64,000 bases of DNA from Isoetes taiwanensis (Eukaryota; Streptophyta; Lycopodiopsida; Isoetales; Isoetaceae), in assembly GCA_021234155.1 (NCBI GenBank), contig JAJEKV010000475.1, positions 62,001-126,000 of the forward strand, written 5' to 3'. The translations under genes and the position numbers were made by a program. The notes under the pieces are model-generated. The model was not told where the DNA came from. It worked only from the letters and a program-made list of their open reading frames with translations, and did no database searches. The first letter of the stretch is position 1. Every line of letters starts with the position of its first letter. Of the stretch, positions 2,151 through 59,400 are shown in pieces.

Positions 2151-2377
2151 GTCAAGAGAGGCTATGGAGCATGCTTCTCATTACCTATTGCAGCCAGTGC
2201 TTTTGCTTTCTTGCATCTGATTTTCTTAGATGTCCCCTTCCACCATAAACAGGAGCAGAGTTGAAGCTGGAGATCTAGAAGCTGCTGAGATTATTAGAGG
2301 CCTTCCTGTTGCTGCAACTCATCCAAGAAATAGAAGAAGCTCTAGAATCGTAGCCCCTGAGCCTTGGCCAGCATCCA

Positions 2378-3979
2378 ATGCATGCTGAAGTGACTAATCC
2401 ACAAGCTTCAGTCCTTAGAAAAATCATCAGGAACAATAGAAGAGGTTCTTGGTCACTTGAAGCCTTAGATAAGGCAAAGGAGGAGATAGGATCAGGTTAC
2501 ATATCTATTAGGAAGGCTGCGAAGTTGTATGGGATCCCTCATACAACTCTAAGAAATCATGTTTCTCGAGCTCTTACTGTTAAGGAGGAGGATGAGCTTA
2601 TAAATTGGATTTTGCAGCAAGTATTAGATGGTCATGGTGTCACTGTTACTATGCTCAGGATCAAGGTTTCTGAAATGTGTTCAAACAGAATCACTCCATT
2701 CAAGAATGTGGTTCCTGGGCCTAAATGGTGGAGGTGTTTTAAAAATAGGCACCCTGATCTCACCATTAGGGGCACACAGCTTATTGAGAATGCAAGGGCC
2801 ATTGCATTGAGTGGCTCTAATCTTGATGTTTTTTATTCTGCTTTGAAGGAGGCATATGAGACATATCAGTTTGATGCCAATCACATATGGAGTTGTGATG
2901 AGTCAGAAATCCAAGCAGGGAAAACAACCAGTGTCAGGGTATTGACCTTGAAAGGAATTAGACAAGTGACTGAAATTACATGTAACAATAGAGAGTGGCT
3001 AACTGTGCTCTCTTGTGTCAATGCTGCAGATGAAAAGTTGCCAAACCTTTACATTTTGAAAGGCATTAGAGCAAGGGAGGAGTACCTTGAGGGCTGTGAG
3101 CCAGAAGCAGCAATTTCCATGCAATCAAGAGCATGGATGACAAAGGATATTTTCAGGGATTGGTTGAATCACTTCATCAAGAAAGTGCATGGTGGAGTGT
3201 CTCCTAGTAACCCACACTTACTTATTGTAGATGGCCATGGATCCCATGTTACACTTGAGACAATCAAGTTTGCTGCTTCAGTTGGTTTATGCATTTTGAA
3301 ATTACCTGCACATACATCACATAGGATGCAGCCTTTAGATGTCAGCTGCTTCAAGTCCTTCAATGAAGCATTCAGAAATATCAAGTTGAAGTATTCTGTT
3401 CACAATTCTGGTGTGGAGCCTTGCAAAGATGATTTAACTGCCATGGTAAGAGAGGCCTTAGATCATGCATTAACTGCATCTAACAATGTATCTGGTTTTA
3501 GAAAAACATGTATATTTCCATATGATCCTACCAAGGTAAACCCTGAATTTACAGGGAGGGATATTTTATGGGATGATCTCCCACAACCAAGAACTGTTGC
3601 TGCTGCAGCAGCTTTTGGTGTAAATCGAACTCCTGTTGACCAAGATGACCCTGCTAACCATGCTAACCCTGTTGTTTTTTGTACTCAAAGGCCTCATGCA
3701 GTAGAGTCTTCTGCAATGGCAGCTAGAAGAAAAAGGGCCAAGACATTTGTGCCCAAGGATATTGCAGGAACCCTCCTTGTAACCAAAGCTGATTACATAG
3801 TTACATTGGAGAGTGAATTGAAGGAGAAAGCAGATAGAAGAAAGGAGAAGGAAGAAACTGCAAACAAGAAGAAAGAATTGCTTGCGAAGAAGAAGACCAT
3901 AAAGGAGCAAAGGGAAAAGGAGAAAGAAGAAAGGCGTAGGGCCAAATTTCCACAGAAATATGCGGTTTTGGCCCACTAA
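2378..3979 (+). CDS. Pogo/Tigger-type DDE transposase, main open frame (533 aa)
   Basis: Residues about 25-65 form a psq-type helix-turn-helix (SIRKAAKLYGIPHTTLRNHV), followed by a CENP-B-type DNA-binding region with PGPKWWRCFKNRHP at about 112. The DDE_1 nuclease follows: WSCDESE holds the first Asp, LLIVDGHGSH the second, and QPLDVS the third, 36 residues further on, which fits the pogo D-35-D spacing. LPAHTSHRMQPLD is the family hallmark. The tail from about 470 is a Lys/Glu-rich coiled coil. About a dozen residues seem missing between the helix-turn-helix and RALTVKEEDEL compared with relatives. The frame is open for 1.6 kb, so decay is recent. The first ATG may be internal, since homologous-looking coding sequence begins at 2230. 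Confidence 0.85.
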   Translation: MHAEVTNPQASVLRKIIRNNRRGSWSLEALDKAKEEIGSGYISIRKAAKLYGIPHTTLRNHVSRALTVKEEDELINWILQQVLDGHGVTVTMLRIKVSEMCSNRITPFKNVVPGPKWWRCFKNRHPDLTIRGTQLIENARAIALSGSNLDVFYSALKEAYETYQFDANHIWSCDESEIQAGKTTSVRVLTLKGIRQVTEITCNNREWLTVLSCVNAADEKLPNLYILKGIRAREEYLEGCEPEAAISMQSRAWMTKDIFRDWLNHFIKKVHGGVSPSNPHLLIVDGHGSHVTLETIKFAASVGLCILKLPAHTSHRMQPLDVSCFKSFNEAFRNIKLKYSVHNSGVEPCKDDLTAMVREALDHALTASNNVSGFRKTCIFPYDPTKVNPEFTGRDILWDDLPQPRTVAAAAAFGVNRTPVDQDDPANHANPVVFCTQRPHAVESSAMAARRKRAKTFVPKDIAGTLLVTKADYIVTLESELKEKADRRKEKEETANKKKELLAKKKTIKEQREKEKEERRRAKFPQKYAVLAH

Positions 3980-6122: not shown

Positions 6123-7670
6123 TCACAACTTTCTCCCGATGTAGTTGATTAGGGAGTCCATGTGATTTTTCTTAAGAGTGGAGGTGTGCTTTTCATTTCG
6201 AACATCATCCCAGTGCGTTATATAATCCTTGATGCCCTTCACTAGTTGGCTAGAGTCTTTAACAGTCTTGAAGGGAGGTGGTTTTAGCTGCCCTTTAGGA
6301 ATAAGAACTTCACCTTTAGCACCCCGTTGCCACAACTTCGATTCCTTGTACGGGCATCCACAACTTTGTCACACTGGTCTCCACTTATATTGCATGATTG
6401 GTATTCCATCCCTAACCCAAAACTTGAACTGAAGTGGCTTTGTGTGTCCTGTCAACTGATCCTTACCATCTAACAAGTATCCCTCGACGAATGATTTCCA
6501 ATCTGCAACCTCATCCATCAAGAAAGCCATTGGGTTGGGGTCAATGCAGCTCTCAAACAAATCCATTGGGAGACTAGTCACGTTTTCTCTCCTGAGCTTG
6601 CCAGAGACGTTTCCGAAGAATGCATCTATATCATCATGGGTATGGCCAACCATCATGAACCCCACTTTTACAACTTTGAATACTCCCACCGCTGTCAAGT
6701 ATGACATTGCCCCAAACATCCATCTATTCTTGTTTTCTTTCCAGCAGTTGTCCAATTGAACACATAGCTCCTCAGACAATTGTTTCTCAAGTAAGGGGAA
6801 ATCATCCCAAGTCCTCCTTGATTCACCATTAACCTTGGATGTGAGCTTTTTTATCTGCCTTTGATAACAACGCGGTTGATCATCCATCAAAGCCTCAAAA
6901 ATGGGGGCTGATGGGGAATACCTCCTCCCTTCTATCAATCCTTTCTCTAGTGTTCTCAAGCACTTGAAAATAGAGCTCACATGGAAGTTTGGATCATCCC
7001 TCCATAGATCAAGCACAAAATGACCATAGGTTCCAGTTCCATGCCCATGTGTTAAGACACCCGCCAGACTTACTTTCATCTGAAAAGCGTTTTGACAACG
7101 CTTGGGTAAAAGATCTAGCTTTGGCAAGAAAGTTTTGTGTTGGTCCATCTTATCATGAATTATACACAAAAATCTGTCAGGCTGCATCTGAGAAAATGTT
7201 CACCACTGCCAATACAACTGTCTACATGATATTTGGTCCCTTTGGTGATCTGCAAATTGCTCCCTAATTGCCATTCTTTCTTTCTCTATTGCAGTTGATG
7301 CAAGTGTATCCTTCAGTTGAATGCAAGTGTTGCACTTTGAGAATGGCATGTATTGCAGGACACTCACGTCTGAGAAGTGAGTGCTCCATAACTTGCTGAA
7401 ATGTGACTGAGAAAGAGGCCTACCTCCAGTAGTTTCTAGGATGGAGTTGACCTCCTTAAGGCACTCTTTTTGGATATAATGTTGTGGCAACACCCTTTGC
7501 ACCACTCGCACACCGTGCTCGTTCACCTTCGACTTGTGGGGCATAGATTGAGACATGTATCTCACAAAGCTCTCGAAGACTGCAATGGCCTTGAGAGTGT
7601 TTGCTCTAGGTTTCAAAGTGAGTGCATTGCCATGTTGGAACAACCTATGCCCTTTTCTAACCTGCTCCCA
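6123..7670 (-). pseudogene. Decayed transposon-type protein with GHTHDDID motif (DUF7869-like)
   Basis: A single minus-strand frame runs for about 500 codons from roughly 7670 to 6123, broken only by two in-frame TGA codons (7200-7202 and 6369-6371). There are no frameshifts. Visible features are FSKCNTCIQLKDTL (paired cysteines) in the N-terminal part; then IIHDKMDQHKTFLPK; LDNCWKENKNRWMF; and VGHTHDDIDAFFGNVS. The last set is the signature of a family of uncharacterised proteins common in transposons of plants and animals; I believe the domain name is DUF7869. NCW and GHTHDDID resemble nuclease-like acidic clusters, but no activity is known to me. The upstream end begins after a possible AG splice acceptor. 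A diverged relative lies at 52633-53543. Confidence 0.65.
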
Positions 7671-20215: not shown

Positions 20216-23070
20216 TTTTATCACGGCAAATATGTGTCAGATTACAATTCATAATTATTAAAATTATAAAACATACACGTATTGAACCTATCCTCGCCAC
20301 GGAGGTTGGGGAAGAAGCATATTAGATGAAAATTTTGCGGGAGGAGAGGGAGAAGTCGGGTGGAGCCGAGGTCAACCTGGTGGCTCGAGGCACCTCCCTC
20401 GTGAGGCATTCCACACTCTTGAGTTGCCCCAAGGTTTCTGTGATGGCATGCAAGAAGCCTTAAAGTTAATCCCCTAAGGTGGACCACCTACCACGCGATG
20501 ATGTAACCGTAGTGACACGTTAAAGGCGCCATGGTCTGCAGGTAAGATGTAAAATACATTGTACCTATTCAATTTATTAATAGAAATTCTTTTCAACTAC
20601 AACTTTGGTTTAATCTTTAATGAATTTCCTTTGTTTGAGTTGCATTGTTCTTGTTCTCATTATCCGAGAAAATGAAGAAAGCTTGATGCACACTCAATGT
20701 ACATAAAAATTAATTATGGATGTTTGGTCGGGTGCTCCTTTTTGTGTAAAATAACAGGGTTCCGAAAAAAAATGGGAATGGAATGAGACCCACTTTAATT
20801 AAATAGTGCTTATAGGTTATTTTTTCGTATATATTCTTTGTGCATAAGATGTCTTAGACTTCCACTGCATATTTACTTGAGTTGAAGTTGTTTTGGTGAT
20901 TTTTATATATACCATTGTGTTAGTATTTTTTTCATTTTAAACCCAGGCACATCTTTGAGAAATGCTAGTCTTAATAATTGTATAAATTGAATATCGAGAG
21001 CAATATGTTGTATACGATTTGATAAGTCTCATATAGTCATCTGGTGCACTCTATAAAGATTATATTTGAGGTTTGTGCTAGTGCGGCTTCTTTTTGCGCG
21101 TCTATGCATAAAATTGTTTCAACGATCTTTTATCTCTCGCATCCAAGGGTCAATGCAGTGATTTCCATCCCAACAAAGAAATATCTTGCCACTCAAATTC
21201 TTTCACTCTTGATTTGCTTCAAGATCATTCTCAAAATGTTGGTTCTCTTTAATCCAATCCAATACGCATCCCATGTGCTCTTTATTTGATATGTGACTTG
21301 ACAATAACTGCCCATTGTAGTAGTGATGGACATGATACAACTTTCTTTTTCCCATCAACTCTTAAACTTTCTTGCTGACATTTAACTTCATTTTAACAAT
21401 TATGACAGCCTTTTAACAATTATGACAATTGAGCATTATTTTTGCAAAGAGGAATTAAAGGAGGTACAATTCTCAACTCTTGCAAGGTCTCCGAAATGAT
21501 CTGTAAGGTGAATATTTTTGAAAATTCAAGAGCCTCCAAATTTTCATCTTCCTTTGCCTTTTTGCTTGATGTCTCGTTGCCTTTTGGCTCTTTAAGTTTT
21601 GAAGTGCTAACATTTACTTCAGGTGTCATGCCCCCCAATTTCATGCATTTTGTTGAGAAGATGAGTATGTCCTTCATTATTCCCCTTCATCAGTCTCATG
21701 GCCTGCACCTCTTGAGCTTCTTCAAAATCCATGGTTTTTTTTATACCTTGATATCCATAACACCATTGTCATTAGTGTCTGCCATTCGTGTCTGAATCAC
21801 TCATTTTTTTTATTTGTATTTTTGAATGCCTCTTGGGCTCCTTCTCCAAGAACTTGTAAACAAGGTGTGTTGCACTTTTTCTCGCCTCTACCATGCCACC
21901 AATATGCTGTAAAGTATTGATTAGCATAATATTTATGCATACCTTATATGTGTTAAAAACATACCTTGGCACTTATGTCCGCAGTGATGGAAACTAAAAC
22001 AAAGCAATAGAAATGAAACATAGACAAAGCATTCTTATGTCTGTGGCAATAGACAAAGCAATAGAAATGAAACATTGTAGAAAATAGAGTTTAAAGACAT
22101 AGTAGAAGACAGGATTTGATACATATCTTTCCACAAATAACAATACCTTCAACAAATAGCAATATGTGTACAACAATTACAAGGAGCGCATATCTCATTT
22201 AGAATATGCTCTGTTCTGAACTAGTATGCTCTGTTCTAGAACTATTATAGAAGCCCCCTTTTGTTTCCTCCCCTTTCTTTTCTGCATATATCTGGCCTGG
22301 CTTTGTAGTCTTTTTTTTTTTTTATAAATACATGCGTCACCTTCTATATGCTTTCTTAGGATTTGTTACGGCAATCTTTCAAGTATTTTTGCAAGAAAAA
22401 AACATTTCTTTCAATGAAACGGATCGCTGGCCCTTTGCTAATCAATCATCATGATAAAAGATCAACATGCAAGAGGCATTCTAAGCGGATGAATTTGCCA
22501 ACTCTAAGCGAGAGGCATTCTTTTGCATCACAAGAGAGGCATTTGTTGATGGATAACCCTAATAGGCACGGGCATTCTAACCCAGTAATGCATGTTTTAA
22601 GATCTATTTTTAAAATGTTACTAACCCTAAAAGATGCAAGCCGCCAAAGGGCAGTATTTGCCCATCGGCCGTCTCACAGATGGAATTCTAAGCTGCATGC
22701 CATTCGGCCGGCTGGTGGATAACCTAAATGGCAAGGCATTCTAAATTAGTCGGCGCCACTCTAGCCTATTTCAAAAATGTTACTCACCTTAAAAAAAGCA
22801 ATGCTGACTTGATTAAATGACCGGCCATCTCCAAAGGCCCAAACTTGTGTTCTTGTTTACATTCCTTCAACCGAACAAAGTCAATTGTTATGACAAACTG
22901 AAATATTACTTTAACGGTTTTTATCTATCAAAATATTCCTTTTGCTTCTTATGTATATTGATAACTAATGGTGATTTGGCGTTGCTGGGTATAAGTTAAA
23001 TCTATATGGACGAAAACCTATTCATTCGGACTCCTTTTCATAAATCTAATATGAGAGAAACCAAGCCTGG
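20216..23070. other. Intergenic, AT-rich; weak minus-strand coding remnant
   Basis: No firm gene. A minus-strand frame at 21420-21677 (KLKEPKGNETSSKKAKEDEN) and another at 21772-21972 (VEARKSATHLVYKFLEKEPK) have hydrophilic, protein-like composition and might be pieces of a transposon protein. Neither has a domain I recognise. The rest is low-complexity DNA. Confidence 0.3.
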
Positions 23071-23089
23071 CATTGCTGATCTTTAGAGG

Positions 23090-24600
23090 CTTTTGTGCGA
23101 GGGCGATACCCTTCCTCTTACCTTTGCCTTTTGCTCTATTCTACATTTCCTATTCCCTCATTTCCCCTACACACTTCCTTTTTCTTTTCCCAATTTTCTT
23201 ATTTTTCCTACATATCTTCTTTTTCTTCCTTTTTTTTTTTTCCTTTTTTAAGCCCCCTTCTCCTTCCACTTCCCTTCCCTTTTCCCTTTTTTTTTTTTTT
23301 TCCTTTCCTTTTTTGGCTCATTTTTCCTTTCCTTTTTCATCCTTTCCCTTCCCTCCCATTTTTCTTTTCTTTTTCCCCTTCCTTTTTCTTTTCCTTCACT
23401 TTTCCTTTCCCTTTTTCCATCCCCTTTTTGTTGTTCTTTTTCCCCATCTTTTCATGTGCCCTTTTTTTCTTTCTTTCCCCATCCTCTTCCCTCTTTATCC
23501 ACTTGCCCTTTTCTACTTCTCTTTTCCCATTTCCCTCTCCTCTTTTCTTTGTGCTCATTTTCCCTTACCTTCCCCCCTTTCCGCCCTCCTTCTCCTTTTT
23601 TTTCCCTTTCCCTTTTCATTCTTTCGGCACCCTTTCGCTTTTTCCCATGCCCTTTTTCCCTTTCCTTTTCTCCCTTCTTTTTTTTTTCTCTTTCTCTGTG
23701 CCTCTTCCTATTCCCTTTTCTCTACCCTTTTTTATGTGCCCATTTTCCTCCTTTTCCCACCCTCTCCTCCTTTTCCCTTTTCCACTTTCTCCTTTTCTGC
23801 TCTTTTTCCCTTTCTCTCCTCTTTCTCTCTTCCTTTTTTTTTCCCCTTTCCCTTTCCTCTTCTCTTTTCCAATTCCCTTGCTCCTCACCTTTTCTCCTTT
23901 CCTTTTCTCGGCCATTTCCCTTTCTCTTTTCATGATGGACTTTCGCTCCGTTTTCTTCCATTCCTATCCTTTCCCCTCTTTCTCTTTTTACCTGTACCCT
24001 TTTTTTATCTTTCCTTCATCATTTTCCTTTTCCTTTCCTTTCATTGCCCTTCCACATTTTTTCTTTTCTTTTTTTCTATTCCATTTTCATATTTTCCCCA
24101 CCCTTTCCCTCTTTCCCTTTTCTTTTTTCCATGTCTTTTTTCTTTTTTTTTTTTTTTTTTTTCCTCTTTCCTTTTTTCTACGCTCTTTCCCCTTCCCTTT
24201 TCTCGTTTCCCCTTCCCTTTGTCTAATCTTTTCAGTTGCCATTTTTTTCGCTTTCTTTTTTCTCTCCCTTTCCTTTTTTCTCCTTTTCCCATATCCTCTT
24301 TTTCCCTTTCCTTTTCCCATGCTCTTTTTTCCCTTCCTTTTCCTTTCTTGACCCTTTTCCCCCACTCTCTCCTTTCTCCTATGCCATTTCCCTTCCCTTT
24401 TTCCCCTTTACCTCTTCCCCTTTTTTGCGTTACTTGCCCTTTTTCTCGGGCTCCTTCCCCCTCCCTTTTTAATTTTTTTCTTTCCCTTTTCCTTTTCCCA
24501 CTTATCCCTTTTCTCCTTTTCCCCTTTCCTGATGCCTTTTTGCCCCTTCGTTCTCCACTTTTTCCTTTTCCCCCTTTTTTCTTTACCCTTTCCCCATAAG
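23090..24600. repeat. 1.5-kb polypyrimidine/polypurine tract
   Basis: The plus strand is almost only C and T, in irregular blocks of CCCTTTTCC and TTTTTT, with rare purines. Long apparent frames (up to about 500 residues of Phe, Ser, Pro and Leu on the plus strand; Lys, Arg, Glu and Gly on the minus strand) are artefacts of the composition. Such tracts can form triplex (H-DNA) structures in vitro. It looks like an expanded, diverged microsatellite. Confidence 0.95.
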
Positions 24601-26375: not shown

Positions 26376-27387
26376 CTAACCATATAATATAAGTAATGAA
26401 TCAACTGTCTGTGCACAAACAGGACATTTTTTGTGTCGATCATTGAGGATTTGATGTGCACACAGTCGACACATGCGATGTCCACATGGAACAAAAGCCG
26501 TATCCTTTGGCTTTTCAAGACATATGCAACAACAATCTTCTTGTCGTGGTTCTTCTTCTTGATGCTCTTGCTGCTGCATCTTTGTGAGAACAATGGAATT
26601 AGCTCTATGCAATTGCTCCTTGTATAGCTTATCTGATATTCTTTTTTTATCTACAACTATATTAGATTGTGATACGAACTTTTCGATATCATTAAATTTA
26701 TCAAGTTTAGCATAAGCATATATCAACTCTCCATCAACTTCTGTAGTAGAACCTCTCTCACGTGCCATAAGTAAGTAGCCAATAAGATCTTCATAGCAAC
26801 TATGCATTTTTGCAATTGAGATAATTCTTTTGAGTCGTGATATATCTTTTGCATGTATAAGTGACCTGATTAAGGTGCTTACTTGAGCTTGGCTTACTTC
26901 CTCCCAAATATTCGTTTCATCAAGGCCAAATGCAAAGTCCACTGCATGTTCTATGTCCTTAAGATTGTTTAGAAGAACATTTAGTGCCTTCTTGTGAAGT
27001 TTCAATTTGGAAAACACAAGAAATGCTTCTTCATAAAACTTAGCTTTCATAGCAACATCGCCAATTGAAGGAGAAAATTTATCCAAGGTATTGATAAACT
27101 CTTTCGCTTTGCTCCTATTTACCCTTATGGCCGCAAAAATAAGCATGTCTTGAAGATTAAACTTTATAACAATAGAAAATTGCAGAGCCAACATTCTCTC
27201 AAGAAGTCTAATTAGTTCCTCATATAAGTTTGCAGTCATAAATGCCTTGAGGGCCATAGTCACTTGTGCAGACTCTGTGTTTTCTGGTAATAAACTGATC
27301 ATTTCTTCTATTACGAGTGATTTGCATGTATTACGTCTAAAAAGTAGCTCTTTCCAAAGATTTGGGTCCATTGATTCAATTATATAC
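26376..27387 (-). CDS. Last exon: clathrin heavy chain-like repeats plus RING
   Basis: AFMTANLYEELIRLLERM lines up with the clathrin heavy chain proximal-leg words AFMTADLPNELIELLEKI. The similarity continues through LQDMLIFAAIRVNRSKAKEF, FYEEAFLVFSKL, YLLMARER and ELIYAYAKLDKFNDIEKFV, in clathrin order, which covers two clathrin repeats. Where clathrin would continue, the chain passes through a Gln/Glu-rich linker to CICLEKPKDTAFVPCGHRMC and CPVCAQTVDSLLILYG. This RING resembles the RGLG/copine type. VPS11, VPS18 and VPS41 also combine such repeats with RING domains, but the sequence here is nearer to clathrin itself. Confidence 0.8.
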
Positions 27388-28523
27388 CTAATATAATGGT
27401 ATCACTTAGGATCAATAGTAGATGCATGGCCGTATATAAAAGGAAGTATGAGTAGAAAACAAACCTTGCTTCAATGTTGAAGAACGACTCTGTAGGAAAT
27501 CTTAAAGCAGTAGCTGCCATCCTATCATAGTTGGTTGAATACAAGAGAAAACTTGCAGGATCCGCCTGACATCATAGATAGTTAGATTGATTGTTTTTTA
27601 ATTGTAGAAAAGGGCTTGTGTGTGAAAGATGTAGAATGCTAACCGCATCGCATTCTCAATCAAGGATTTCAAGCGGCCAATTGAAACGAATGAACATGGA
27701 CTAAAATTAAGGAAAAAAAAAATCATATGCTGACAAGAATCAAATGAAGATTAGCAAGCAATCCATACATTCAATGCCATGAAGCTTATGATGGCCTTCA
27801 TCATGATATACGAAAAAAAAAAAGTATGTAGATTATACTCACTGGAGAAAACAGGGGGGTTTCACCAAAAAAGCTTAACAGAGAATCAGGAACGGAAGAC
27901 ATAGACTTCTGACGGAAACGCCGAAGCCATCTCAGGCGAACGAGGAGGCAACCGAAGATGAAAATCATAATACAGAAGAGGAGAATTCTGATCCTCTTCT
28001 GCTCTTTATTGTTGTCATCTTCTGAAGGAGAGAAGACGACATCTCCATTGTTCTTGACAGAGATTTCGACACTGGAGAGGTGGGTTTTTTGATAAGCATT
28101 GACAGTATGGATTTTACGCTTACGTTCATAGGAAACCAGGTAAATGTAGCCCTCATCATCCAATACGAGGGAGCAGACATCAACGGCGGAGTAATCTCCC
28201 AGCATTGGAAGACTTCCCCAAAATTCTGCGTCGAGCGACGTTGTATTACTCTTTGCCAAATAGCAGAGCATTCCTTTCTCTGTTGTGACATTTATTCCCA
28301 AATACAGGGAGTAGACGGAGTCTGGGGATTTTCGGATAATATTAACCTGCGGAAATGTGTCGCTTGCATTGGCAGCCATAAATGCAAAGGTACGATAAGT
28401 TGCTCCATGGACTAACAGACTGATCTGACATAGCAAGGCTGTTAAAAGCAGCACCTTGGCATGTATCTCCATCACACGACACAACTGAATGCTCCGGTTT
28501 TGGGACATCATTTTATAGCCCAA
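26376..28523 (-). CDS. Membrane-anchored clathrin-repeat RING finger protein (three exons, 597 aa)
   Basis: Exons 28523-27843, 27565-27465 and 27387-26376 join in phase (681 + 101 + 1012 nt) with donors GTGAGT and GTTTGT and acceptors GTCAG and ATTAG, giving 597 open codons. The protein has a signal peptide (about 23-40), an ectodomain with N-glycosylation sites at N52, N78 and N93, a membrane span (about 178-197) followed by Arg-rich residues, a clathrin-heavy-chain-like alpha-solenoid (about 228-520) and a C3HC4 RING (C547 to C585). It ends soon after the RING. Expected topology is type I: solenoid and RING in the cytosol, probably on endomembranes or the plasma membrane. An E3 ubiquitin ligase acting in vesicle traffic is inference. 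The start may be M18 (28472). Two separate genes remain possible if exons 1 and 2 are not joined in the mRNA. Confidence 0.65.
27465..27565 (-). CDS. Middle exon of the clathrin-RING gene
   Basis: The acceptor GATGTCAG/GCGG (with CTAAC branch-like sequence upstream) and the donor GCAAG/GTTTGT bound 101 nt. It encodes ADPASFLLYSTNYDRMAATA and RFPTESFFNIEA, comparable to the clathrin segment NPERFLRENPYYDSR. Its phases (0 in, 2 out) fit exon 1 and the last exon exactly, which is the main support for the joined model. Confidence 0.7.
27644..27700 (-). other. Possible cassette exon with in-frame stop
   Basis: Between the first two exons of the clathrin-RING gene, 57 nt are framed by a strong acceptor (TTTTTTTTCCTTAATTTTAG) and a GTTAGC donor. 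The length is a multiple of three, but in the exon 1 phase it contains TGA. Inclusion would stop translation before the solenoid and RING. This could be a poison exon, a mutated former exon, or chance. Confidence 0.3.
27843..28523 (-). CDS. Exon 1: signal peptide, ectodomain and transmembrane segment
   Basis: MEIHAKVLLLTALLCQISLL is a typical signal peptide, starting at M18 of the longest frame. The ectodomain of about 135 residues has two cysteines (C87, C116 region) and beta-rich text such as VCSLVLDDEGYIYLVSYERK, which resembles a propeller blade but is too short for a full propeller. IRILLFCIMIFIFGCLLVRL is the membrane span, and RWLRRFRQK is the cytosolic stop-transfer patch. The exon ends FSP/GTGAGT in phase 0. 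No known ectodomain family was recognised. Confidence 0.65.
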
Positions 28524-28546
28524 AATTCAAAGAAAACTTCTTTTAT

Positions 28547-28657
28547 GCTCGTTTTGTGGCTGGACAAAATTCAAAGAAAACTTCTTTTAGCTTGAAAACG
28601 TGCCATTCACAAGCTAAAAGAAGTTTTCTTTGAATTTTGTCCAGCCACACAACGAGC
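28547..28657. promoter_or_regulatory. Near-perfect hairpin, 48-bp arms, upstream of the clathrin-RING gene
   Basis: Arms 28547-28594 and 28610-28657 are inverted repeats differing at one position, around a 15-base loop. The first half of the arm (CAAAATTCAAAGAAAACTTC) also occurs directly at 28521-28540, so the unit is present three times. It lies within 25-135 bp of the first ATG, in the probable promoter or 5-prime leader. It may be a snap-back MITE remnant or act as a cruciform or RNA hairpin. Confidence 0.8.
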
Positions 28658-28902
28658 ACGTATCGTAAAATCGAGCCGTTCAATTAATCGTGAGTTGGGG
28701 TCATCGTACAACTCATCGTGAGTTTAAAGGGCCAAGCGCCCTTTAAAACTGCGGCTGCCAATCGATCTCAACTTCTTCGAAAGTTATAGCAAAGTTGTAG
28801 CCTATGCCTATGGAGGCGGACCGTCGTATTATGGCTAAAGCATGTATTATGGCTTCTGAGCCCGATGGTTTTAAGTACGCCCGATTTGGGTTGGCCTCCC
28901 AT

Positions 28903-35953: not shown

Positions 35954-37647
35954 GTGGCAGCAGAGGCATTAGTATCTAAAATAGAGCTGCAAGTAGAGTC
36001 GCAACCAGCAGAGGCATTGGCGTCTCAAATAGAGCTACAACCCGAGTCATCTTCTGCACAACCGCGCAGAAGAAGAAGTAGACCACAACAAGCATGGTCT
36101 GCTTTGAGACCAGAATTCATAAATTGGTTATGTAATCGGCTTTACAATGTCTCAGCCCAGGATCTGGAATTGATTACCAATAGCGAGGAAGAATGGCTAG
36201 ACTACCATGCAGGGCTTGTTAAAGATGCTGAGAGGGCTTTTAAACCTCGAATGATAGCTCTAGAGCCTAAAAAGGGTGAGCAAGAGAGGTACACATAGAT
36301 AGTAGGCAATATTAGCCACACTACTGGGAATATGATCATGGAAGTTGCAAATTTGAATAGTCATCGTTTGAGGCTAGAGCTGAAAGAAAAAGCCATCACG
36401 TGGAATGCGGCTTGGAGCAACAGAAAGTTGAAGAACGAAGCCCACCAACCCCCTCATCTTGTTAAGAAAGTGTTGGCGCAAACAATAAGAGCCAAACGTC
36501 CTGGTGAGACGAATAGGGAGTGGGAAGCTTGTAGAAGAGCAGATGCTAAGACAACTTACTTTGCAAAAGTAGATTCGTCGTAGATAATAAATAGACAAAG
36601 AATTGGTTCTGGTTCATATGGGACGGTGCATAGATGTAATATTTTGGGTTCTAGTTTTATTAAGGATGAACCATATTGCGTAAAGTTTCAAAACAATAAT
36701 TGTCAGCCAGGTACAGATCCTAATAAGCTAGTGGAAGCTATGTTGAAAAACATGAGGGAGTCTGGGACGCAGGTTAGGCATGGATGTATAATATGCTGCA
36801 TTGGTAGCACTACCGGCTTAGAGAGGCAGGGCTTAATTTTTCCTTTTTGGAATGGAGGTTCTTTGGCAAGCTTTTTTACAAGCCATCGGTGCAATGCTTT
36901 TGCTGAGCTTGCGTTTAAAAAGTTAGGAGCTGCCCCCAGAGTTGAGACTGACTTGATGCGCCTTGAGGAGTGCAGAAGGAAAGAGTTATTTGTTGCTTCT
37001 AGTGTTGGGGACTTGGCTATGTCATTCTGTAGAGGTCTGCACAAACTTCATCAAGAAAGGTATTTGCATATGGACTGGCATCCGGTCGATATGCTACTCC
37101 ATTTTGAGTATGGAAAGGAGAAGAGATGCATTGATCCTCGGGCTGTTTATATTGGCATTTGTGATTGGGGTGAATCTAAGCTCATGGGTGAGATAGTGGA
37201 GGTGAAGCAATGGCATTACAAGGGTTTGGATGGCGAGGATAAGAAAAGAATTGAGATTGAAAGGGCGAGGCATTCATAAATGCACGATGATCTTTGTTAT
37301 GGTAATGGCTCAAAGACGGTAGCTGCCAAGGGTTGACTTTCACTTGCACGTATATTGTGTATTACTTGGTTGATTTTGCTAGTAAACACTCCTACATGGA
37401 GTTGCTAGGAAGCATCGAGCAGCAAGGTAGGCATCGGAGAATGTGCTACTATTTGGAACATTGTGTTGAGTCACCTTCGAGAGACAAGACACAAAAATTT
37501 GATTTGGCCCAACTACTTGACACCATGGGGAGCAGTTTTCATTGCTCTCCAATGCCGTGCAGGAGGCCATTATTGGAATCAGATTGGATTCTTCAACTTG
37601 GCCACGGTGGGGACGATGTAGACCAAGCTGGTTCTAGTCATGTTTAG
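35954..37647 (+). pseudogene. Degenerate protein-kinase-like gene, probably transposon-borne
   Basis: One frame runs from 35954 to 37279, interrupted only by TAG at 36296, TAG at 36581 and a final TAA. After one shift it continues at 37333-37647. The N-terminal third is a charged region with PRRRRSRPQQAWSALRPEF. The kinase fold then shows the Gly loop RIGSGSYGTVHRC, the Lys strand YCVKFQ, a catalytic-loop equivalent HMDWHPVDML (Asp kept, Asn changed to Asp) and CDWGES for DFG. So the catalytic Asp, the metal-binding Asp-Gly and the ATP-binding Lys survive, while the loop is atypical. The next gene, in the same direction, has a RING-like motif. I infer one mobile or duplicated unit. Confidence 0.55.
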
Positions 37648-58104: not shown

Positions 58105-59400
58105 TTGGTATCAGAGCCTCTTGATTCTAAAAACCTCTGCATAATGTCTACCAATCGCTTTGGCGTACCTTATCAGCAGTATACTCAGGCTATGAGCAAT
58201 GCCAGCTACATAGCAGATCAAATGGCTATTTCTCCCTCTACCAATCCTGCAGAACGTCAAAGACAAATGGAATATTTGTGTTTGGCTTACAAATTTTTAC
58301 CCGAGCCTCCTGTGCAAACAAATGCACAACTAGCTCCACCTGTGCAAATGAATGCACAATCAAATCCCCCACATATTGTAGAGCCGACTGACATGCTCCA
58401 GTCTCCTCTTGAATCCTCTTGTAAATGGTTAGAAAAAGTTGCAGGTTTACCTACATTCTCCGGTGAAAAGAGAAACCCGCCTACTGTCTTTGGATTCCTC
58501 TCTACATGGGAAAGCTATTTCGATTTGGTAAAAGCTAAAGAAAAGCAGAAGCTGCAGCCCATGGATAAATATTTGACAGATATGGCGAGAACATGGTGGC
58601 AAGGAAGAAAAAGAATGGACCCAAAGATTTTAACATGGAAAAGCTTTAAAAAAGCTTTTGAGGTTATAATCTGACTGCCAATTATCATAATGATGTCAAA
58701 CGAGAGTGGGTTTTATTCAAGCAAGGCGGCAACGAATCAGTTTACCAGTACACATCAAAATTTCAGTATTTATCCACCCAAATGGACTGGTTAAATGAGA
58801 AGGGACTGTTACGCAAGTATATAGCGGGACTTAAGAATTCCTTGTATGCAGAATTAAGCTTTATAGATCCTCAGACATTGGAAGAAGCAACAAAGAAAGC
58901 TATTGCTGTGGAAAGAAAGTTAAATCCTGATTTCATAAATTGCAGTATATGGGAAGGGTATCCTGAGGACAAAGGCAACGACAAGATAAGCAATGATAAA
59001 GCAAGCAATGGTAAGAATTCAGACAAGGGAAATAAAAGGGCCAGAGCCAGTATGGGAGATAATCAAGACCAAGCTTCAAAAGCAAAGTGGGACAATCAAT
59101 TTGATAGATCTTCATCAAAGAAAAGTGGGTGTTTCTACTGTGGAGGACCACATCTTAAAGTAGACTGCCCGAAGTTAAGTGCAAAAAGAGAGCAAAATGA
59201 TCGAAGCAATCGGGGAGAATGAAGGGAACTAGGCAAAATAGAGTATAGACCAAATGCTCGTTCCAGCAGACTTCTGGCCCAAATGTCTCAGTTGGAAGAG
59301 CTTCCGGCGGAGCCAAGCGCCAGAACGAATAAACAAGTAACTTTTGCAGATGAAGCGCAAAAGGAAAGGGCGAAACTGCAAATTGCCTACTTAAAATAGT
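58105..59400 (+). pseudogene. Ty3/gypsy-type gag of retroelement 2, frame broken
   Basis: The first frame (58105-58674; the likely start is the ATG at 58144) contains the capsid N-terminal part with YLTDMARTWWQGRKR. Coding continues in another frame from 58668 (NLTANYHNDVK) through 58782-59222 with YIAGLKNSLYAELSFIDP. A zinc knuckle follows (CFYCGGPHLKVDCPK). After an in-frame TGA at 59220 the frame goes on to 59400 (QVTFADEAQKERAKLQIAYL). So there is one frameshift and one stop. Family knowledge: gag packages the RNA in virus-like particles. No protease, reverse transcriptase or integrase follows; the element is cut off. Confidence 0.8.
58106..58117 (+). other. Primer-binding site of retroelement 2 (initiator-Met tRNA)
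   Basis: TGGTATCAGAGC is the exact complement of the 3-prime end of plant initiator-Met tRNA, the usual primer for plant LTR retrotransposons. It is followed directly by the gag frame. Confidence 0.85.

Follow-up and report, generated by a model that had tools for sequence, protein, structure and literature searches.

RING fingers placed behind clathrin-type repeats are known from the HOPS/CORVET subunits VPS41, VPS11, VPS18 and VPS8, in which the repeats are followed by a C-terminal RING and which are not known to have a membrane span. Plant membrane RING ligases such as the ATL and PA-TM-RING proteins combine one span with a cytosolic RING. The clathrin heavy chain (CHC) itself is generally regarded as an unchanging coat component that is kept whole. 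We describe here a gene from Isoetes taiwanensis that seems to combine these elements: it lies at 26376..28523 on the minus strand of a 64,000-nucleotide stretch (assembly GCA_021234155.1, contig JAJEKV010000475.1, positions 62,001 to 126,000; hereafter the window) and encodes a signal peptide, an ectodomain, a membrane span, a CHC leg segment and a RING finger. We estimate at about 0.55 the probability that it is a real, expressed chimeric membrane protein with a clathrin-leg arm and a RING, built on an older clathrin-derived RING protein.

Compared with these systems, the window protein shares the repeat-RING order with the HOPS/CORVET subunits, is closest in sequence to CHC and has a span in addition. 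It resembles the ATL and PA-TM-RING ligases in its single span and cytosolic RING and differs from them in having another RING type and a clathrin leg. Unlike CHC, with which its last exon aligns, it has no propeller, proximal leg or trimerisation hub and has instead a RING, a signal peptide and a span. It looks as if this plant excised a leg segment from CHC and added a RING; the combination of RING and clathrin-type solenoid, otherwise known from the VPS subunits, would here have been rebuilt from clathrin itself.

Gene structure and encoded domains

Three exons (28523..27843, 27565..27465 and 27387..26376) join in phase over a spliced length of 1794 nt and are open up to the stop. Their introns, of 277 and 77 bp, are both GT-AG. 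The earlier note on this DNA had proposed this stop-free three-exon join with the right coordinates, but its 597 residues count from position 28523, which is a TTG. An ATG at 28472 aligns with the Met of L019, a relative of exon 1 elsewhere in the genome (MEIHAKV / MEMHAKV), and because the Met of L019 sits where the window has this ATG, the 580-residue model is the better one and 28472 the likely start. A TATAAA (28512..28517), suggestive by position only, stands 40 bp 5' of this codon. The coding part of exon 1 (27843..28472) gives 210 aa, comprising signal peptide, ectodomain, membrane span and cytosolic stub. It is followed by intron 1 (27566..27842; GTGAGT..CAG, phase 0), exon 2 (27465..27565), intron 2 (27388..27464; GTTTGT..TAG, phase 2) and exon 3 (26376..27387), which holds the CHC leg segment, the RING and the stop; all these features, like those given below for the gene, are on the minus strand. 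When the window without its pyrimidine tract was dinucleotide-shuffled 200 times, a frame of 241 aa or more appeared once; in 500 shuffles of the local 4 kb, none did. This test, together with the paralogue-matching tail of exon 1 described below, rules out chance open reading frames.

We then examined the clathrin and RING parts. The earlier note had claimed clathrin-type repeats and asked for a profile comparison between clathrin and VPS families, which came out in favour of clathrin: in Pfam, exon 3 matched Clathrin at 1.2e-33 (116 bits), zf-C3HC4_3 at 1.4e-11 and zf-C3HC4 at 2.9e-8, and the VPS models scored weakly (Vps41 27.9 bits for a cut-off of 27, VPS11 26.3 for a cut-off of 27.5). 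As the best PDB matches are also CHC, a VPS-type protein was ruled out. The leg segment (26586..27387) corresponds to bovine CHC 945-1218 (phmmer against PDB, E 3.1e-41), which, by published CHC anatomy, runs from the end of the distal leg across the knee into the start of the proximal leg. The match is limited to this region; propeller, proximal leg and trimerisation hub are unmatched in the encoded protein. When C-terminal fragments of plant CHC were run against the window by tblastn, they revealed no additional CHC exon; separate propeller exons were not searched for. Since the hub is missing, triskelia should not form, and since the propeller is missing, adaptor binding as in CHC would be impossible. 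We had read exon 2 by eye as wholly CHC, which the shuffle comparison did not confirm: its last 12 residues gave a CHC score reached by 2 of 5000 shuffles, its first 24 residues one reached by 2570 of 5000. Only its last ~12 residues are thus CHC-derived, the first part being not recognisably so. The RING (26397..26540) is complete, as had been claimed, with 8 of the 8 C3HC4 zinc ligands read in the sequence. Over 54 residues it is 54% identical to the RING of another locus, L011, where a frame of 845 aa also matches ankyrin weakly.

The three elements claimed for the front are likewise all encoded. The signal peptide, MEIHAKVLLLTALLCQISLLVHG (28404..28472), was recognised by hydropathy and by its alignment with MEMHAKVLLL of L019, its cleavage site being inferred. 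The ectodomain (residues 24-152; 28017..28403) belongs to a multigene family with a tandem cluster, is 66% identical to L019 and carries three N-glycosylation sequons at residues 35, 61 and 76. The membrane span (about residues 160-178; 27939..27995) has a hydropathy maximum of 2.5 and is followed by the basic stub RLRWLRRFRQK. By the positive-inside rule, this stub fits a type I topology (N-out, C-in). Exon 1 has no match in Pfam or PDB, and no homologue outside this genome was found among 108 candidates. A lectin-like ectodomain was considered and rejected: PDB gave no match, and Pfam gave none for the window protein. Of six relatives, three had no Pfam match either and the other three only matches far under the cut-offs, so that none of the six came near one.

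Paralogues of the clathrin leg and RING

To place the 3' half of the gene, we searched the genome assembly (1,658,258,908 bases, 1110 contigs) with exon 3. Of the 16 places found, only three have leg and RING together: the window, a locus on C1026 (L002/L009) and C1035:2657296 (L005/L010). Four others are CHC-like without RING, with 38-42% identity to exon 3 (C1035:4338560, C937, C1056 and C1046), and the remaining nine are RING-only (six) or a short leg piece (three). The copy on C1046 is probably a processed CHC copy, because it has a stop and lacks intron 2. L007 is a CHC copy with a TAG and without the intron of its near-twin L006; it looks like a processed CHC pseudogene.

The closest comparison is offered by L009 (6027-8257), a five-exon gene of 466 residues in which all four introns are GT-AG. 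It encodes a ZZ zinc finger (Pfam 9.9e-7), a clathrin leg and a RING, with no signal peptide or span seen in the protein; the ZZ finger thus stands where the window gene has signal peptide, ectodomain and span. In leg and RING the two genes share 61% identity, and the last two introns of L009 have phases 0 and 2, as in the window gene. Moreover, the homology extends upstream of the first of these introns. The third exon of L009, which precedes them, ends SLLHLVGETPLFSP, with SLLHLVGETPLFSPYDH directly before the donor, and exon 1 of the window gene ends SLLSFFGETPLFSP directly before its own donor. This tail of exon 1 (27843..27884) is homologous to the end of the ZZ exon: 11 of 14 residues are identical, and the codons show 7 synonymous and 4 nonsynonymous differences. 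At the DNA level the Smith-Waterman score is 44, reached by 0/500 and 0/2000 shuffles in separate tests; that of intron 1 against L009 is 24, reached by 125/2000 shuffles, i.e. no match. For us the tail match is the strongest evidence from sequence that exon 1 is spliced to exon 2. By tblastn, no ZZ exon was detected in the window or its flanks (30 kb each), a search that a short diverged exon could escape. A tblastn extension in intron 1 (DAVSILHL) had been considered as a remnant of the ZZ exon and was ruled out by the DNA comparison.

The leg itself can be traced to plant clathrin. Intron 2 has exactly the site and phase of the corresponding intron in the CHC gene L003 (between CAAGCAAG and ATATGTTG in L003, between GAAGCAAG and GTATATAA in the window gene), and the same holds for the CHC gene L006. 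A tree built from 16 rows groups the two CHC-RING legs with six plant CHC rows in a single clade, separated with a support of 100/100 from the eight other rows (bovine CHC and seven database CHC fragments); the tree left out L010 (partial leg), P0004 (a near-copy of P0003) and P0010, P0012, P0013 and P0014 (region mostly missing). The common intron and the plant CHC clade therefore indicate that the leg was copied as DNA, intron included, from a plant CHC gene. A retroposed CHC copy as source of the window gene is ruled out by intron 2 at the CHC site.

The third copy, L010 (4256-6940), is an intronless frame of 894 aa (909 stop to stop) in which a kinase-like part, with an HRD motif that looks degraded by eye, precedes the second half of the leg and the RING. 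It is 94% identical to L009 in DNA over 1140 bp with a dN/dS (nonsynonymous over synonymous divergence) of about 1.0, and therefore looks unconstrained. From the ZZ, membrane and kinase-like fusions, it follows that the CHC-RING 3' end was joined to three different fronts in this genome.

We also searched a protein database of about 5.8 billion entries twice, using first the joined protein and then a profile built from the three CHC-RING copies, and scored each time the ~8000 best word-sharing candidates of limited length. The joined protein gave 5 matches and the profile 9; 13 of these 14 have clathrin-repeat Pfam entries and no RING entry, and the last is a RING/zinc-finger protein. No CHC-RING outside this genome was present among the scored candidates, a search that may overlook longer or distant relatives and in which the coverage of ferns and lycophytes was unchecked, and the three-domain ZZ-CHC-RING layout was not found among them either. 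The part of the literature that we searched contained no description of such a protein, and the words clathrin, RING finger and ubiquitin do not occur in the main text of the Isoetes taiwanensis paper (PMC8566536). Within the limits of these searches, the clathrin-leg RING architecture looks new. The earlier note had supposed a layout that is known from no described family, which holds in so far as our searches gave no match; the idea of a family sharing the joined order does not, as the front of signal peptide, ectodomain and span accompanies CHC-RING in only one copy out of three and was grafted on recently (see below).

Source of the membrane front

A protein search of the genome with exon 1 returned 69 places at E<=10, itself included. 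Forty-one of these, the window included, are at E<1e-10, and 17 of the 41 are on one contig, C1059, between 2.53 and 3.74 Mb. These are places in the genome and not genes, some of them containing stops. The best relative is 66% identical. We examined seven relatives (L019-L025): all but one (L023) run into Pro-rich stretches after the ectodomain, and none into a CHC-RING. The window gene has the signal peptide and ectodomain of this family and lacks the Pro-rich stretch. Two of the relatives, L019 and L020, have a short hydrophobic second exon, recognised by eye in the DNA, which is possibly a tail of glycosylphosphatidylinositol (GPI) type. The ectodomain of these secreted proteins is of no known family, and no relative outside the genome was found in the search made.

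The likeness to this family begins upstream of the gene. A 113-bp palindrome (28546..28658), with an inverted self-match of 90.3%, lies just 5' of the TATA-like site, and both of its halves are also found upstream in L019, L020 and L038, three relatives of exon 1. In DNA, homology starts at 28512 (against L019) or 28414 (against L020) and ends at about 28031, the upstream palindrome being covered as well. The span segment that follows (28031-27885) has no convincing second copy: apart from the window, the DNA search of the genome had no match past position 493 of 958, and when the last 61 residues of exon 1 were searched as protein, only two weak matches came up besides the query itself (E 0.036 and 1.1). 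We considered whether the span came from sequence downstream of the ectodomain in the secreted relatives and rejected this, the best scores being matched by 43-250 of 300 shuffles for seven of eight relatives; for L038, the wrong side of the match may have been taken. The exception, L023 (5/300), is a gapped alignment far downstream. On these alignments, the membrane front is a graft, with palindrome, signal peptide and ectodomain taken from a tandem family of secreted proteins. Because the front is a graft, and no second copy of its span was found, the membrane layout represents one young chimera and not a conserved family.

Five places (L026, L031, L032, L033 and L036) are copies of a dispersed repeat, sharing 89-95% identity with L032 across as much as 2 kb, which carries a broken fragment of an exon-1-like gene. 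This repeat may be a mobile unit into which part of an exon 1 family member was taken up.

Selection, proposed origin and rival readings

Over 369 codons, the window gene and L009 differ by a dS of 0.64 and a dN of 0.27 (dN/dS 0.415), with similar ratios in the solenoid (0.405), the RING end (0.386) and exon 2 (0.362). This comparison shows purifying selection on the CHC-RING half. For the ectodomain, dS is 0.24 and dN 0.21 between the window and L019. Taken together, the divergence from L009 and that of the ectodomain indicate that the front was probably grafted on after the two CHC-RING genes had split.

We propose that, in a first step, the part of a plant CHC gene from distal leg to knee was duplicated as DNA and joined to a RING finger, as the shared intron 2 and the tree suggest; in L009, this leg-RING unit follows a ZZ zinc finger. 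In the window copy, where the ZZ part was not found, it would then have been replaced by the upstream region, signal peptide and ectodomain of the secreted family and by a span without a second copy; of the ZZ-type exon, the final 14 codons before the splice donor would have stayed. That homology begins and ends inside exon 1 supports such a replacement. The product would be a type I protein whose cytosolic clathrin-leg solenoid places a RING ligase under the plasma membrane or an inner membrane. Its most likely action would be that the solenoid binds neighbours, possibly clathrin legs or leg partners, and that the RING ubiquitinates them. A more detailed account is rather doubtful as a whole: a membrane-anchored ligase whose distal-leg/knee segment sits in or beside clathrin lattices and ubiquitinates coat or cargo, arisen when a secreted front was grafted onto a lineage-specific ZZ-clathrin-RING ligase, so that with L009 and L010 at least three re-uses of the leg-RING module would have occurred.

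Several observations weigh against a working membrane protein. The ectodomain dN/dS is 0.87 between the window and L019 and 0.84 between the window and L020, against 0.38 between L019 and L020 themselves; more distant pairs give 0.45 (window-L021), 0.39 (window-L024) and 0.28 (L019-L021). Worked out by hand with the three-point rule on window, L019 and L020, the window branch has dN and dS values of about 0.18 and 0.15, respectively, and hence a ratio of about 1.2. After leaving L019 and L020, the ectodomain thus seems to have drifted or changed under selection, being either relaxed or fast-evolving. The dN/dS of about 0.41 of leg and RING may, for its part, mostly predate the fusion. With the branch length as measured, 7% of neutral simulations left the whole of exon 1 stop-free; across all branch lengths tried, the share was 5-15% for the whole exon and 9-23% for the ectodomain alone. 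The open exon 1 is therefore only weak evidence of use. Its codon usage does not stand out, since 13.5% of 3000 random window frames score as high, which makes this test uninformative, and its structure predicted without an alignment has low confidence (pLDDT 52.5). As for the RING, many RINGs have an Arg after the last Cys, which often stabilises E2-ubiquitin. Here the residue is Ala, so ligase activity could be weak.

A rival reading is that the chimera is real in the DNA but a non-functional relic, young, drifting and weakly or not transcribed; we regard this as somewhat unlikely. The transposon-bearing surroundings on a 180-kb contig and the spread of exon-1-like fragments through dispersed repeats speak for it, in addition to the branch ratio and the simulations. 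However, 580 codons have remained without a frameshift, a stop or a broken splice site, all RING ligands, the TATA-like site and the start codon are retained, and the CHC-RING half keeps its low dN/dS at a dS of 0.64. It is distinctly less probable that two genes were joined by mistake in our model, exon 1 being a stand-alone single-pass membrane protein that ends at the stop at 27801-27803 and exons 2 and 3 belonging to a transcript started elsewhere. The frame of exon 1 does continue 13 codons beyond the donor before that stop, and its relatives are independent genes. Against this stand the last 14 codons before the donor, which match the exon preceding exon 2 in L009 with an identical phase, and the failure to detect a ZZ exon nearby, with the reservation already made. 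That the gene works as a soluble or internally started CHC-RING ligase, alternative starts bypassing the membrane front, recalls the paralogue L009 with its lack of a visible signal peptide or span; we hold it to be very improbable, as the front has its TATA-like site, its signal peptide and the palindrome common to relatives in the source family.

In this plant, the leg-RING module was under purifying selection for a time and was then reshuffled into three settings: behind a ZZ finger, behind a membrane front and behind a kinase-like protein. Because the steps of the latest fusion are still readable, the locus offers a clear example of a new membrane protein made by exon grafting. It would also, if expressed, be a natural experiment on what a clathrin leg can bind by itself and on ubiquitin delivery near coats.

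Finally, the window contains other features outside the gene. On the plus strand, these are an open 541-aa transposase-like frame (2354-3979) with HTH_psq, HTH_Tnp_Tc5 and DDE_1 matches, a pyrimidine-rich stretch (23055-24599) with low-complexity open frames of up to 514 aa, a 231-aa open frame that partially matches a protein kinase (36584-37279), thus on the strand opposite to the chimeric gene, and a Retrotrans_gag/Ty3-capsid-like frame (58662-59222). A DUF7869 frame (6369-7199) lies on the minus strand.

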